Origin: an uncultured Pseudomonadales bacterium
Lineage (GTDB): Bacteria; Pseudomonadota; Gammaproteobacteria; Pseudomonadales; Azotimanducaceae
DNA: 35,171 nt
Direction: 5' to 3'
Assembly (NCBI GenBank): GCA_905182095.1
Contig: CAJJAQ010000170.1
Span: 1-35,171 of the forward strand
Within the stretch, counting starts at the first letter, position 1. Each line of letters opens with the position of its first letter. Of the stretch, positions 20,770 through 34,130 are shown piece by piece. The notes beneath the pieces are model-generated. The model saw only the letters and a program-made list of their open reading frames with translations. It did no database searches and was not told the origin of the DNA. The position numbers and the translations under genes are program-made.

Positions 20770-21129
20770 ATGAACTATTTTAGTGACGCGCTACTCAAGT
20801 ATGGCGACTTCGGCAGTAGAACCAAGAGAAGAGACTATTGGATGTTTATTCTCTTTTATCTATTTCTTAGCTCAATGGCGCGAGTCTTAGATTTAGTGCT
20901 CGGATTTGGTCTGGGTTTAGGGCTGGGGTTTAGTCTTGTGAGTTGGTTTTTTTCCCTCGCTACGCTGATACCCTTGATAGCTGTTACAGCCAGAAGGTTG
21001 CACGATACGAGCCGCAGCGGCTGGTGGATGCTGCTTGGTTTTGTCCCGTTAGTGGGCCTAATAATTCTTATTATATTTTTGTCTCAGAAAAGCCAAGCCA
21101 ATAACCAATATGGCGAAAGTCCAGAGTAG
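20770..21129 (+). CDS. DUF805 family inner-membrane protein
   Basis: A 119-residue membrane protein with the DUF805 pattern: an N-terminal amphipathic part YGDFGSRTKRRDYWMFILF, three to four membrane helices including a glycine-leucine rich one (LGFGLGLGLGF), and the family hallmark ARRLHDTSRSGWW at about residues 74-86. Length is normal. Function of the family is not established. The start ATG at 20770 follows AAGGGGC with a T-rich spacer. It is convergent with the small membrane protein of the sigma factor operon, with stops adjoining at 21129/21130. Confidence 0.88.
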   Translation: MNYFSDALLKYGDFGSRTKRRDYWMFILFYLFLSSMARVLDLVLGFGLGLGLGFSLVSWFFSLATLIPLIAVTARRLHDTSRSGWWMLLGFVPLVGLIILIIFLSQKSQANNQYGESPE

Positions 21130-21474
21130 CTATTCGCTAGACTTTAATCCGATAAAACCCAATGCCCCGAGGAATAAGCCAATGCCCACGGTTATGCTCA
21201 GTGCCAGAGCAGATTGAGAAATTTGAAATATTGCTTGCAGCGCCGCGGTGAATATCCAGCCAAAGGCGTTGTCTATGGGGTTCCCTGGGTTGATGAAAAA
21301 TACCCCAACCACTAAGAGATTAATTAAGGCGATTGAGAAAAGGATTTTCTGCAATTTGCCCTTAGAATGCTGTGAAGCAATTTTTGCCATAACGGCAAAC
21401 CCGAACAATTCACTATTTTGCAGATGATATTTGGTTTCTTTCTCGCGCTGTAAAATACTTTCAAATTCGTTCAT
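21130..21474 (-). CDS. Small membrane protein downstream of the ECF sigma factor (candidate anti-sigma)
   Basis: A 114-residue protein starting at the ATG at 21474, whose A is shared with the TGA stop of the sigma factor gene; AAGAAGG upstream serves as ribosome site. The TTG one codon earlier is less likely. The first 40 residues are polar and cytoplasmic (NEFESILQREKETKYHLQNSE), followed by two to three membrane helices. No zinc-binding HxxxCxxC motif of ZAS anti-sigma factors is present. The tight translational coupling to a sigma factor gene and the cytoplasmic-head/membrane-tail layout suggest an unconventional anti-sigma factor, but this is inference from context only. Confidence 0.72.
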   Translation of the reverse strand: MNEFESILQREKETKYHLQNSELFGFAVMAKIASQHSKGKLQKILFSIALINLLVVGVFFINPGNPIDNAFGWIFTAALQAIFQISQSALALSITVGIGLFLGALGFIGLKSSE

Positions 21475-22061
21475 CAAATTACCTTCTTCTTTTTGTCTCT
21501 AGCATTTGGGGCATTTGGGGAGTCTTTGGCGTTTTGCTCAAGCTTGCCAAGCTTCTGCGTGGCTCTACTGAGTTTTGATTTTACGGTACCCGGATTGAGC
21601 GCCATCAACTCACCTATTTCTGCAATTTTAAATTCGTAGACAAAACGCAAAATCACCAGCGCACGCTCTTCCATGTTGAGTGGTTTTATCAGCGCCACAA
21701 AAGCTCTGTCCATTTCTGGCTCCGGTGTATGGAAACCTTCAAGGGATTCTTCGTAGGAGTTAGAGAGGTTAAAGGCATCTGAGGAAACGTAAGCGTTTTC
21801 TTTTTTTATTGCGTCTTTAAAGCAGTTAACCGCAATGCCTGCTATCCAATGTTTAAACGCTTTGTTGCGATCAAAGCTTTTCAGATAAGTAAACGCATTG
21901 AGAAAAGTTTGTTGAGTAATGTCCTGGGCTAAAGCCCTGTTGCCACTGGTCAGTCGCATATTCAGCCCAAAAACATAATCGCTGTGGCGCTGCACAAGGG
22001 GGCCAAAGTGGAATGCCCCCTCAGCAAGCGTGCGACGTACAAGTTCCGGGTCTGGAATCAT
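21474..22061 (-). CDS. ECF-type RNA polymerase sigma factor
   Basis: A 195-residue sigma-70 family protein of extracytoplasmic-function type. Region 2 is at about residues 20-85 (SDYVFGLNMRLTSGNRALAQDITQQTFLNAFTYLKSFD, with the -10 recognition segment ending HWIAGIAVNCFKD). Region 4 is at about 125-175 (LNMEERALVILRFVYEFKIAEIGELMALNPGTVKSKLSRATQKL), the helix-turn-helix for -35 binding. A basic tail follows. It starts four bases after the DUF6249-like gene and overlaps the next gene by one base, so it is embedded in an operon with a GIN-domain secreted protein. It probably controls its own operon in response to an envelope signal. Confidence 0.9.
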   Translation of the reverse strand: MIPDPELVRRTLAEGAFHFGPLVQRHSDYVFGLNMRLTSGNRALAQDITQQTFLNAFTYLKSFDRNKAFKHWIAGIAVNCFKDAIKKENAYVSSDAFNLSNSYEESLEGFHTPEPEMDRAFVALIKPLNMEERALVILRFVYEFKIAEIGELMALNPGTVKSKLSRATQKLGKLEQNAKDSPNAPNARDKKKKVI

Positions 22062-22064
22062 TGG

Positions 22065-22475
22065 CTAAACTTGGCTGTCTTTCTGTTGAGCGTTTTGCTG
22101 AGCGTCTTTTTGGTAAAAACCAAAGCCGCTCATTGCCAGACCAAAGAGGGCAAAGCACAGGCCTAACCCCACAACAAAATCCCCATGTCGGCCAAAGCCA
22201 ACGTAGCCTAGGCAGGCAACGCCTAGTCCGAAGCCGAGAGTTAAAATTCCTCGTCTTAAGTCGTTTCTAGCAGATACTTCTTTGTAGCCCGGAATACCGC
22301 GCAGCAATTCTGGGGCAATTTGCTGGCCACTGTTTATAAGCACCTGCAACGACTCATGGAACAACCGGTCTCGGTTGCGTTCATATTTATAGTAAATGTG
22401 GACAATAAGGGCTGGCAATCCAAAAGCCATAACAATAGCCAACACCGGAATCAGTAGGTCTTCTAATAAATGCAT
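22065..22475 (-). CDS. DUF6249-like membrane protein
   Basis: A 136-residue protein with one N-terminal membrane helix (LLIPVLAIVMAFGLPALIVHIYY), a cytoplasmic stretch with the family-like pattern YERNRDRLFHESLQVLINSGQQIAPELL, and two close helices near the C terminus (LRRGILTLGFGLGVACLGY and DFVVGLGLCFALFGLAMSGFG). The helix / 'R.R..HE.L..LI..GQ.IPPELL' / two helices layout is what I know of DUF6249 proteins, which commonly lie beside ECF sigma genes. The ATG at 22475 has AGGAAAAAC upstream. It is second in the four-gene minus-strand operon. Function unknown; membrane signalling component is an inference. Confidence 0.72.
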   Translation of the reverse strand: MHLLEDLLIPVLAIVMAFGLPALIVHIYYKYERNRDRLFHESLQVLINSGQQIAPELLRGIPGYKEVSARNDLRRGILTLGFGLGVACLGYVGFGRHGDFVVGLGLCFALFGLAMSGFGFYQKDAQQNAQQKDSQV

Positions 22476-22523
22476 ATGTTTTTCCTTTACGAGGATTGTG
22501 CGTCCATGTTGTGAAGTGGGCAG

Positions 22524-23294
22524 TTAACAGTGAAACGAATCTACTTCGCCGCCTGAAGATGTCTTCAGAGCATTGCGCTCTGCTTCTTCCGGTAGATCAA
22601 TGTTGCCGCCGCTGGAAACGCGGCCTTCAACAGACATGGCTCCGCACATTTCAGCAGAGCCACCAGATGAAATACGCACCGATGCTCTGTTAATTTCAAC
22701 CTCATTTGCAAATCCAATTTGGCCGCCGGAACTTGCTTCAACCTTGGCACTGGTCACATTCATGGGCGCTTTTATGTCTATTTTCGCACCAGAGGAAACG
22801 TCTACCTCAAGGTAGGTGATTCGGCTATTGTCGCCATTAATGCGCAGCGAAGATCCTGAACTCGCGGTTAACTCCACTTCTGCACTGTTGGAGAAGCATT
22901 CACTCACTCGCCCCTCAGCAGCAGATTTGACTTCAATCGCTTCCGGGGAATAACTCAATACCAGTTCGGCAGAGATAGATTCAAAGCCCTTAAACCAAGA
23001 TGAAAATGAACCGTTTTTTGATAGGGAGATTTCATTGGCGCTTATATCCAAGTCAAAAGCGTCCTCGTCACTGGCTGTTATTCTAATGATTCCGCTATCG
23101 TCCTCATCGCCTGTGCGGGCTCGAATGCAGGTAAGGGTAAACTCGATACCCTCATCAATTTCAACCTCCTCAGCATCTTTGGCTATGGGGTACTCAAAAA
23201 CCTCTGCGCTGGCAGTTGGCGCTAAAGTCCCTGCGATGGTCAGTAGTAGTATTTGTATTAGAGCGTGTATTTGTGACCGGTTAATGTGCTGCAT
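22524..23294 (-). CDS. Secreted GIN-domain (DUF2807) protein
   Basis: A 256-residue exported protein. The signal peptide covers about residues 1-30 (hydrophobic ALIQILLLTIAGTLA, cleavage after ASA). The body is a right-handed beta-helix type repeat: segments like LTASSGSSLRI, VDVSSGAKIDI, VEASSGGQIGF, VRISSGGSAEM, GRVSSGGNIDL and KTSSGGEVDSF recur every 18-22 residues with the SSGG/SSGA turn, the hallmark of DUF2807/GIN proteins ('putative auto-transporter adhesin, head GIN domain'). Four cysteines could form disulfides. CAGGAGAT upstream of the ATG at 23294 is a strong ribosome site. First gene of the sigma factor operon; it may be the sensed or regulated envelope component. Confidence 0.85.
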   Translation of the reverse strand: MQHINRSQIHALIQILLLTIAGTLAPTASAEVFEYPIAKDAEEVEIDEGIEFTLTCIRARTGDEDDSGIIRITASDEDAFDLDISANEISLSKNGSFSSWFKGFESISAELVLSYSPEAIEVKSAAEGRVSECFSNSAEVELTASSGSSLRINGDNSRITYLEVDVSSGAKIDIKAPMNVTSAKVEASSGGQIGFANEVEINRASVRISSGGSAEMCGAMSVEGRVSSGGNIDLPEEAERNALKTSSGGEVDSFHC

Positions 23295-23446
23295 ATTGAT
23301 CTCCTGTTTTTCTATATACTCAGTGCCTGCCCAAAACGTTGCATGCAGGGTGAAAAAAATCTGCTTAAACGGACCTCACCAATCAATGACGCTCATTTCA
23401 TGCCCCAGCTAATAGTCAAGTATTTCAAGCAAAGCAAGCCACAGGC

Positions 23447-32611: not shown

Positions 32612-33340
32612 CTAGTTTAATCGCTCAACGCGGATTTGGATGGCGGGGTGATCCCAGCGATGAATAGAAGAAAGTGCTGATGTGGTGAGCCCGTCAGTAG
32701 TTGTGACTACGCCTGCGTGCACGAACACGCTATCTCTGACATCGTCGCGAACGGCGTTGAAGCCTTCTTGAGCGCCGCCAGCTGCTGCAGGGCCGGGCAT
32801 GGTAGCGGCAGTTTCAGTATTTGCCTCTGTGCCAGTGTCATAACTCAGCGCATTCACGCGCATGGATTCATTAGAGTTCAGGGTCGATATATCAATGCGG
32901 TTGAGAGCCGCGATAGCGTCATTTGTATTCACTAGCATTGCTACTAAAGACAGTGACAGACTTCTGATTTGGGATTCAGTCACTTCGACCTCTATACTTT
33001 CAGATTCTCCCGGTCCTATATCGCCGGTTCCAGAGGCCGCGCCAAAGACACCTACCATGTTTTCAGCCGCAGCAAGTAAAGCGCTATTGTCACCACTCTC
33101 AGCAAGCATCTCTAACTCTGTAGAAGCAGGTTCGCCAAGGTTAAAGGTGCTCCAGCTACCGTCATGTAACACAATGGCAACAGGTGAAAATGGTTGTGCA
33201 GCTGTGGTGTTAGTCAGGGTCACTCGGTAACTGATGGCGGCTTGCTGTGTAAATGACGTCGCTAGATTGCTGTTGGCCCCGCAAGCCACTAACAGTGATG
33301 CTGATATTGCAGTCAGGCTTAGTTTTAAGAGAATTTTCAT
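32612..33340 (-). CDS. Spondin-domain lipoprotein (Spondin_N)
   Basis: A 242-residue secreted protein. Using the ATG at 33340 with AAGGAAAG upstream, the N terminus is MKILLKLSLTAISASLLVAC, a lipoprotein signal with the lipobox LVAC (Cys at about residue 20); the longer frame to 33379 is unlikely. The body has the Spondin_N pattern: YRVTLTNTTAAQPFSPVAIVLHD, LAESGDNSALL, GPGESESIEVEV, LSLVAMLVNTNDAIAALN, NALSYDTGTEANTE and a C-terminal IHRWDHPAIQIRVERL. It lies 10 bases after a paralogous gene. Family members are found in bacterial surface or periplasmic proteins with unknown roles, sometimes linked to metal or matrix binding. Confidence 0.86.
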   Translation of the reverse strand: MKILLKLSLTAISASLLVACGANSNLATSFTQQAAISYRVTLTNTTAAQPFSPVAIVLHDGSWSTFNLGEPASTELEMLAESGDNSALLAAAENMVGVFGAASGTGDIGPGESESIEVEVTESQIRSLSLSLVAMLVNTNDAIAALNRIDISTLNSNESMRVNALSYDTGTEANTETAATMPGPAAAGGAQEGFNAVRDDVRDSVFVHAGVVTTTDGLTTSALSSIHRWDHPAIQIRVERLN

Positions 33341-33350
33341 TGTGCTTTCC

Positions 33351-34130
33351 TTAACGTACGGTGACAGTGATTCTGGCAACAGGATTGAGCCAACGCTGTA
33401 CCCTGCTATCTACGTCGCTTATGCCGCCCGCTGTATTGGCGTCACCTAAGTTGCCGCGGTGGATGTGGACAAAACCTTCAGTAGTGGTTGTCACGCCTGT
33501 GCCGCCTGTTCCAAGTACTGGGTTTAGCGGTTCTGGAACTGGAAAACCTGGTGTGTTCAAATCGCCGCCGCCACGTAATTCATCATTGGCTTCGGTGCCT
33601 GCGTCGTAGGCGTTGGCATAAAAGGTATAGGTGCCAGCTTCGGTGGGGATATCAACTGCATTTAGCCCAACGAACCCGTCATTAGATGGCAACACCATTG
33701 CCACAATAGACAGTTGTGTATTTGCCGTGGCGTTAATCGTGTCTAGCGTGCTCGTAGCTGTGGCGCCCGGGGCTAGCAAGCCCGCCGCTGGGTTGTTGTC
33801 CATAGTCGCACCTGAGCTGGTTAATACGCGTGCAAGGTCTTCAATCTCTCCGGTTTCAGCCATCGTTTGCAATTCAGTCGAGGCGCTTACGCCACTGGCG
33901 AATAGGTTAACGTCGGCAGCATGTGCTACTACGGCAATCGGAGTAAAGTATAAGCCTCGGGTTATGTTGTCGATGGTGATATCAAAGTCGACTGCCGCAG
34001 CCATTGGGGCTAGGGCAGATAAAATAATGGCTATAAGACATTTGTTAGTTTTTGCGATGAATCGCTTCAATATGCTATTTGTCGTAGCAGATAGTTGGAT
34101 TGCAGGTCGGTCGAGGTGGTTAATTAACAT
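33351..34130 (-). CDS. Spondin-domain secreted protein, paralogue of the next gene
   Basis: A 259-residue protein with an N-terminal export signal: about 25 polar residues, then a hydrophobic stretch CLIAIILSALAPMAAAV, cleaved after AAA. No lipobox is present, so it differs from its lipoprotein neighbour. The Spondin_N body shows FDITIDNITRGLYFTPIAVVAHAADVNLF, ELQTMAETGEIEDL, GLLAPGATATSTLDT, LSIVAMVLPSNDGFVGLNAVDIP, FYANAYDAGTEANDELRGG and VQRWLNPVARITVTVR. The ATG at 34130 is the only ATG before the signal; it has a weak GGAAA about eight bases upstream. Together with the following gene (10-base gap) it forms a two-gene operon arising by tandem duplication. Confidence 0.86.
   Translation of the reverse strand: MLINHLDRPAIQLSATTNSILKRFIAKTNKCLIAIILSALAPMAAAVDFDITIDNITRGLYFTPIAVVAHAADVNLFASGVSASTELQTMAETGEIEDLARVLTSSGATMDNNPAAGLLAPGATATSTLDTINATANTQLSIVAMVLPSNDGFVGLNAVDIPTEAGTYTFYANAYDAGTEANDELRGGGDLNTPGFPVPEPLNPVLGTGGTGVTTTTEGFVHIHRGNLGDANTAGGISDVDSRVQRWLNPVARITVTVR

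Follow-up and report, generated by a model that had tools for sequence, protein, structure and literature searches.

A conserved DUF6249, sigma factor and small membrane protein unit with a predicted minimal anti-sigma factor in an uncultured Pseudomonadales bacterium

Anti-sigma factors of class I have a four-helix cytoplasmic domain that is taken as 50 aa or more, its zinc form being marked by Hx3Cx2C (available text of PMC7406223). According to the available text of PMC5358783 and PMC7406223, RsiW binds sigma2 through its L4'-a4' part, and CnrY retains no more than the equivalent of a3'-a4'. For the Toastrack/Lia and PSP modules, the text available (PMC11237479) counts DUF2807 as Toastrack, connects it with envelope stress and mentions an operonically linked sigma factor; most of these modules are described there with PspC or LiaI-LiaF-TM and are argued to be intracellular. 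The Dma/Reo dual-membrane anti-sigma factors of Bacteroides are described, in the available parts of PMC13088901 and PMC9308784, as single proteins of large size that extend to the outer membrane.

In this study, the window, a stretch of 35,171 nucleotides from an uncultured marine Pseudomonadales bacterium, was analysed around an operon for a GIN-domain protein, a DUF6249 protein, a sigma factor and a small membrane protein (Table 1).

Operon layout and encoded proteins

The ORFs confirmed what the earlier note on this DNA had read from the sequence, namely four genes on one strand, with 48 and 3 bases between the first three and an overlap of one base between the last two. The overlap lies at TGATG, where the ATG of the small gene (position 21474, from which the 114 aa are counted) shares one base with the stop codon of the sigma gene; the start in the ORF list is a TTG at 21477, one codon 5' of this ATG. 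A DUF805 gene (20770-21129) is convergent with the operon and its stop codon abuts that of the small gene; a similar short convergent ORF was seen by eye in two other DUF6249 loci (L035 and L036). Elsewhere in the window, two adjoining and slightly overlapping minus-strand ORFs (32612-33379 and 33351-34130) contain a similar stretch (VTLTNTTAAQPFSPVAIVLHD and ITIDNITRGLYFTPIAVVAHA, respectively) and look like a tandem duplicate.

Table 1. Positions of the operon genes, the parts of the small protein and the predicted promoter in the window
Feature	Position	Strand	Length	Remarks
GIN/DUF2807 protein gene	22524..23294	-	256 aa	Toastrack-type; Pfam match and apparent Sec signal peptide
DUF6249 membrane protein gene	22065..22475	-	136 aa	three TM helices by hydropathy
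ECF (sigma2-sigma4) sigma factor gene	21474..22061	-	195 aa	Pfam and NCBIfam matches
Predicted minimal anti-sigma factor gene	21130..21474	-	114 aa	two TM helices after a short N-terminus on the cytoplasmic side
Putative sigma-binding part (N-terminus of small protein, residues 1-42)	21349..21474	-		
Proposed counterpart of the RsiW-like helix (residues 21-37; F24, V28, M29, I32)	21364..21414	-		suggestive only for the window clade
Predicted ECF-type promoter, TGCAACGTTTT-N9-CTGAGTA	23317..23343	-		

The product of the sigma gene matched Pfam Sigma70_r2 (40.4 bits, cut-off 24) and Sigma70_r4_2 (38.7 bits, cut-off 25.7) as well as NCBIfam TIGR02937 (65.2, cut-off 42.9). With regions 2 and 4 in a short protein, it is an ECF sigma factor.

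The GIN protein narrowly exceeded the cut-off of Pfam DUF2807 (PF10988; 25.7 versus 24.2 bits), gave no match in NCBIfam and showed by eye an apparent Sec signal peptide at residues 1-30. Its structure model had a mean pLDDT of 55.3, with a confident beta-helix for about residues 161-256 only, and the best structure matches were weak: 3jx8 (E 0.65), followed by 4opw (E 0.87), which is named as a Toastrack example in the available text of PMC11237479, and also 3ljy.

The membrane protein belongs to DUF6249 (PF19762; 46.9 bits, cut-off 33). The "HE" stretch (RLFHESLQVLINSGQQIAPELL) to which the earlier note had drawn attention proved to be the loop between TM1 and TM2, which is conserved in the family (consensus ETI..lle.GqdlPpELL); the E and the PEL end agreed with the majority consensus of the relatives, but the H did not.

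The small protein of the window had no match in Pfam, no significant match in NCBIfam and, searched against DUF5056 (PF16479), none at E up to 1. Among 29 small proteins of the family, 19 matched DUF5056 at E<=1, one relative (L092) scoring over its cut-off (28.9 versus 28); class-wide, DUF5056 was matched in 6 of 185 genomes, in none over the cut-off. No anti-sigma family was among the matches listed (25 of 40 families) for the relatives. As had been claimed before, the zinc anti-sigma motif is missing: the protein has no cysteine and thus no Hx3Cx2C. A tail of about 40 aa devoid of cysteine also places it outside the class I (ASDI) domain. Its AlphaFold2 model was weak (pLDDT 64.8, pTM 0.29), with helices predicted at residues 2-14 and 21-61, and a fold search with this model gave no match at E<=0.001.

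Conservation of the unit and of its predicted promoter

Loss of the gene order outside this genome had been named beforehand as grounds for rejecting the unit; the order was found to be conserved. All four genes occur in the same order in the genomes G017 and G021, and G005 has the last three on a contig that ends before the GIN position. Identities to the window in G017, G005 and G021 were, respectively, 85%, 85% and 28% for the small protein, 88%, 92% and 32% for DUF6249, and 91%, 92% and 52% for the sigma factor; those of the GIN protein were 81% in G017 and 34% in G021. The small protein was matched in 4 of 58 near relatives and in 7 of 293 genomes of the order (E<=0.001; three weak matches in long frames look like chance), and DUF6249 in 38 of the 293. 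A DUF6249 family search across the class matched 12 of 369 genomes. The family was common in one genus and in families preselected for matches (16/18, 94/144, 38/112, 82/101 and 65/117 genomes, the last count including many weak partial matches).

Search returns, together with regions picked by hand from their lists, gave 337 DUF6249 matches, of which 286 were distinct after removal of identical DUF6249 sequences only; owing to the hand-picking, counts from this set are no random sample, and since every locus was chosen by DUF6249 they say nothing on such sigma genes lacking it. A sigma gene adjoined DUF6249 in 241 of the 286 loci; 41 had no sigma gene, including three (L175, L178 and L179) that are second DUF6249 matches in sigma-bearing loci, and 10 were cut off. 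With start codons taken as approximate, DUF6249 had an N-terminal extension (long form) in 125 loci and was short in 161.

Behind the sigma gene, 231 of the 235 untruncated sigma-bearing loci had a TM ORF of 70-220 aa, starting at -4 relative to the sigma gene in 83 and at -8 in 75. By hydropathy, two TM helices were counted in 153 of these ORFs, one in 65 and three in 13. A family profile built from 29 members matched 226 of the 231 (the exceptions being L308, L350, L117, L108 and L111). The other four loci (L264, L194, L191 and L126) contained a profile-matching frame outside the TM or distance rule: two of these frames are weak in hydropathy and overlap the sigma gene by four bases, and two start 150 and about 174 bases past it. 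A profile-matching small protein was therefore present in 230 of 235 loci, and a non-matching small TM ORF in five. In 17 unrelated sigma loci of other phyla used as a control (L008-L024), any small TM ORF was found in three and a profile match in none.

The GIN protein adjoined DUF6249 in three loci, including the window, and was fused to it in one, giving 4 of 286 as a lower bound, as the profile was a narrow one built from four proteins. A GIN match in L033 was discounted; it lay in an unrelated-looking protein of 1414 aa that had wrongly entered the first GIN profile. The fusion (L077:3999-5270) is a single protein with an apparent signal peptide, a GIN domain (87.1 bits) and DUF6249 (67.8 bits), followed by the sigma and small-protein genes. 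It ties GIN to DUF6249 and suggests that the GIN part is periplasmic and the DUF6249 loop cytoplasmic.

These results show that the conserved unit, found across many families, consists of three genes, DUF6249, the sigma factor and the small protein, to which GIN is a rare addition. The four-gene unit proposed in the earlier note thus stands as to its three-gene core, but the four-gene version itself is rare.

Among the 41 DUF6249 loci without a sigma gene, 12 had a small XRE-type HTH frame (L088, L201, L202, L323-L327, L329, L330, L332 and L333), which in nine began no more than about 8 bases from the end of DUF6249; one such frame, scanned by family profile, matched HTH_3 (54.8 bits). It may be that DUF6249 partners more than one type of regulator at the membrane. 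Two short DUF6249 genes without sigma (L096 and L094), from two genomes, share a similar context, with membrane and lysine-rich ORFs before DUF6249; after it come a small ORF that looks exported and a larger exported one.

An ECF-type promoter, absent from the earlier note, was predicted before the operon (Table 1); TGCAACGTTTT-N9-CTG[AC]GTA is common to the window, G017 and G021 in the DNA before the operon. A first pattern, T[GA]CAAC-N16-20-GT[AC], was found upstream of DUF6249 in 11 of 17 loci of the clade containing the window (window clade); counted over the 14 loci of this clade other than the window, G017 and G021, the number was likewise 11. A second, GCAAC-N17-19-GTA, the first base having been freed after the sequences were seen, was present in 16 of the 17 upstream regions, including those of the window and G017 (shuffled mean 0.19), and missed G021 because of an N in the sequence. 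It occurred in all 14 further window-clade loci, 61-75 bases before the start codon in 13 of them. For this second pattern the region upstream of GIN was used for the window, L035 and L034, and L036 was omitted, as its contig ends there. Not all of the 17 loci are independent, as they form nine groups at an identity threshold of 80% between sigma factors.

The sister clade carried another promoter: of its 213 loci, 70 had TG[CA]ATC-N14-19-[GC]CATC (shuffled 0.2) and 155 had TG[CA]ATC[CT] (shuffled 15.1). As a control for the two-part motif in 231 loci, the first 300 coding bases contained it in two and the reverse upstream strand in none. ECF promoters have a two-box form with such spacing, a likeness that points to autoregulation. 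In the genome of the window, GCAAC-N-TTT-N13-15-GTATA had an exact match only at the operon, overlapping the predicted promoter (two matches in the reversed control), and TGCAACGTT-N14-16-GTA had a single match besides the operon (one in the reversed control); no wider regulon was shown by these patterns in this genome. A generic sigma-70 promoter scan found one site versus 3.7 expected.

Taken together, gene order, coupling, the ECF-type promoter, the apparent signal peptide of GIN and the GIN-DUF6249 fusion lend good support to the previous proposal of a self-contained envelope sensing sigma unit.

The predicted cytoplasmic tail of the small protein and the RsiW-like motif of the sister clade

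When a profile of 45 tails was compared with 177,635 PDB sequences, the best match was to residues 60-78 of the anti-sigma factor RsiW (E 0.0065). With a full-length profile of 29 small proteins, RsiW ranked second in PDB (E 1.7), and with a tail profile free of the window clade the RsiW stretch scored alone gave 21.3 bits. Because residues 60-78 are located at the end of the 80-residue construct, we infer that they are the L4'-a4' part. E. coli RseA carries a similar FDISSRVMAAIEEE, but with the tail profile it scored only 4.3 bits, not significant with an E of about 340 for a database the size of PDB.

The likeness belongs to the sister clade. A profile of window-clade tails alone did not find RsiW, and the tail profile of the sister clade found none of 18 window-clade proteins. 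The full-length sister-clade profile reached 10 of the 18 below E 0.01, only three of which (the window at 3e-4, L035 and L036) scored better than the strongest DUF6249 decoy (4.9e-4); such matches may therefore rest on the TM parts. In the other direction, the window-clade profile reached 2 of 213 sister-clade small proteins. A non-circular comparison of profiles across the clades aligned them in the register expected, but its score was exceeded by 4 of 100 column shuffles; another such comparison was discounted as circular, its alignment containing five window-clade rows. The link of the window clade to the RsiW-like motif is suggestive only, and the window protein is therefore read as an anti-sigma factor mainly for its place in the operon, its coupling to sigma, its size and its topology.

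Of the window-protein residues, F24 was kept at the aligned position in 221 of 231 small proteins, L8 in 216, V28 in 179 and M29 in 127; the tail consensus of the window clade was F..I...EK...Y...N..LF.F.TLT.IA.EQA. In mean-field DCA of 231 triplets (Neff approximately 147 at 80%), sigma-sigma pairs were under-represented in the top 100 (0.65-fold), indicating that the analysis had no power, and no inter-protein pair was used.

Proposed mechanism, alternatives and relation to described systems

The DUF6249-sigma-small-protein unit is a real and conserved sigma unit; its most likely mode of action, judged from these sequences, is that a minimal anti-sigma protein sequesters sigma at the membrane and that sensing lies with a separate protein. 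In the form that we regard, with some reserve, as probable, an autoregulated ECF sigma factor would be held at the inner membrane by the 114-residue protein, with GIN and DUF6249 serving as the sensor. The small protein would be the inner-membrane anchor, its two TM helices leaving almost no periplasmic part. In the tail of approximately 40 residues, the first helix (2-14) would lie on sigma4 and the second (21-37, through F24, V28, M29 and I32) on sigma2, which is the arrangement of class II anti-sigma factors, and the bound sigma factor would be inhibited. Since a sensor domain is not evident in the small protein, the signal, presumably one of the envelope, would be sensed by the exported GIN protein, by DUF6249 or by both; the three TM helices and conserved loop of DUF6249 would then bring about release, and the freed sigma factor would transcribe its own operon from the predicted promoter. 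The earlier note had suggested that the last gene could encode a new kind of anti-sigma factor. An anti-sigma factor is indeed the best explanation in view of position, topology and the motif in the sister clade; a new kind it does not appear to be, for the protein resembles a known kind in minimal form, with the class II layout of CnrY.

Against this main reading, DUF6249 belongs to the unit no less than the small protein does. DUF6249 itself could be the true anti-sigma factor, with sigma held on its loop and the small protein a helper or stabiliser; we consider this unlikely. Its conserved loop, its position beside sigma in 241 of 286 loci (in a set chosen by DUF6249) and its position beside a 70-aa HTH_3 regulator in some sigma-less loci, from which it may act on DNA-binding proteins, would fit such a role. 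However, the RsiW-like motif of the sister clade lies in the small protein, and all 235 untruncated loci with sigma have a small protein behind it (230 by profile, five as other TM ORFs). DUF6249, in contrast, is also found in loci lacking sigma and beside an unrelated regulator, which is what one would expect if it were a sensor partner. Alternatively, the two membrane proteins, which flank sigma with tight spacing, might form a two-part complex inhibiting only jointly, comparable to YhdL-YhdK of Bacillus subtilis sigma-M. To this arrangement we give a slightly lower chance again.

That the small protein is an activator or stabiliser of sigma, or an effector of the regulon, rather than an inhibitor, seems very improbable. 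Between the window-clade tail and known anti-sigma motifs there is no significant relationship, which would agree with such a role, but the sister-clade tail matches RsiW, and anti-sigma genes usually lie near the sigma gene or in the same unit (available text of PMC8103513).

A broader reading, offered tentatively, is that DUF6249 is a general TM signal transducer for unrelated regulators, coupled either to an ECF sigma factor that has a mini-anti-sigma protein of two TM helices, in two clades each having its own promoter code, or to a small HTH_3 regulator. The anti-sigma factor would be blind, and sensing would reside in GIN or in the N-terminal extension of DUF6249; with the sensor on a separate protein, release need not involve periplasmic cleavage of the anti-sigma factor.

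In the literature searched, no description of this sigma unit was found; the search did not cover the ECF re-classification, which may list the sigma group. Neither DUF5056 by name nor GIN domain, sigma factor and anti-sigma combined gave a result, and DUF6249 gave a match only on plant kinases, as judged by title. An association of GIN with sigma is not new as such, since a Toastrack-linked sigma factor is mentioned in the available text of PMC11237479. The unit offers a testable function for DUF6249 and the DUF5056-like proteins, both of which are without one, and for a GIN protein, and names a promoter that can be used as a reporter. It suggests that a tail of approximately 40 residues may suffice as the whole anti-sigma domain when the sensor is on a separate protein.

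Compared with described systems, the proposed arrangement is close in layout to class II CnrH-CnrY of Cupriavidus metallidurans, with which it would share a short two-helix sigma-binding part lacking zinc-binding helices (available text of PMC7406223 and PMC5358783); it differs in having two TM helices, no notable periplasmic domain and separate GIN/DUF6249 partners. With SigW-RsiW of Bacillus subtilis, a zinc anti-sigma system, it has in common the sister-clade tail that matches RsiW 60-78; there is no zinc-binding three-helix bundle here, and the window clade alone has no RsiW match. Unlike in the Toastrack modules, the GIN protein here carries an apparent signal peptide and is partnered by DUF6249. 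Like Dma/Reo, this unit would place an unusual membrane anti-sigma factor beside an ECF sigma gene (available parts of PMC13088901 and PMC9308784), but here the sensor and the anti-sigma factor would be separate small proteins.
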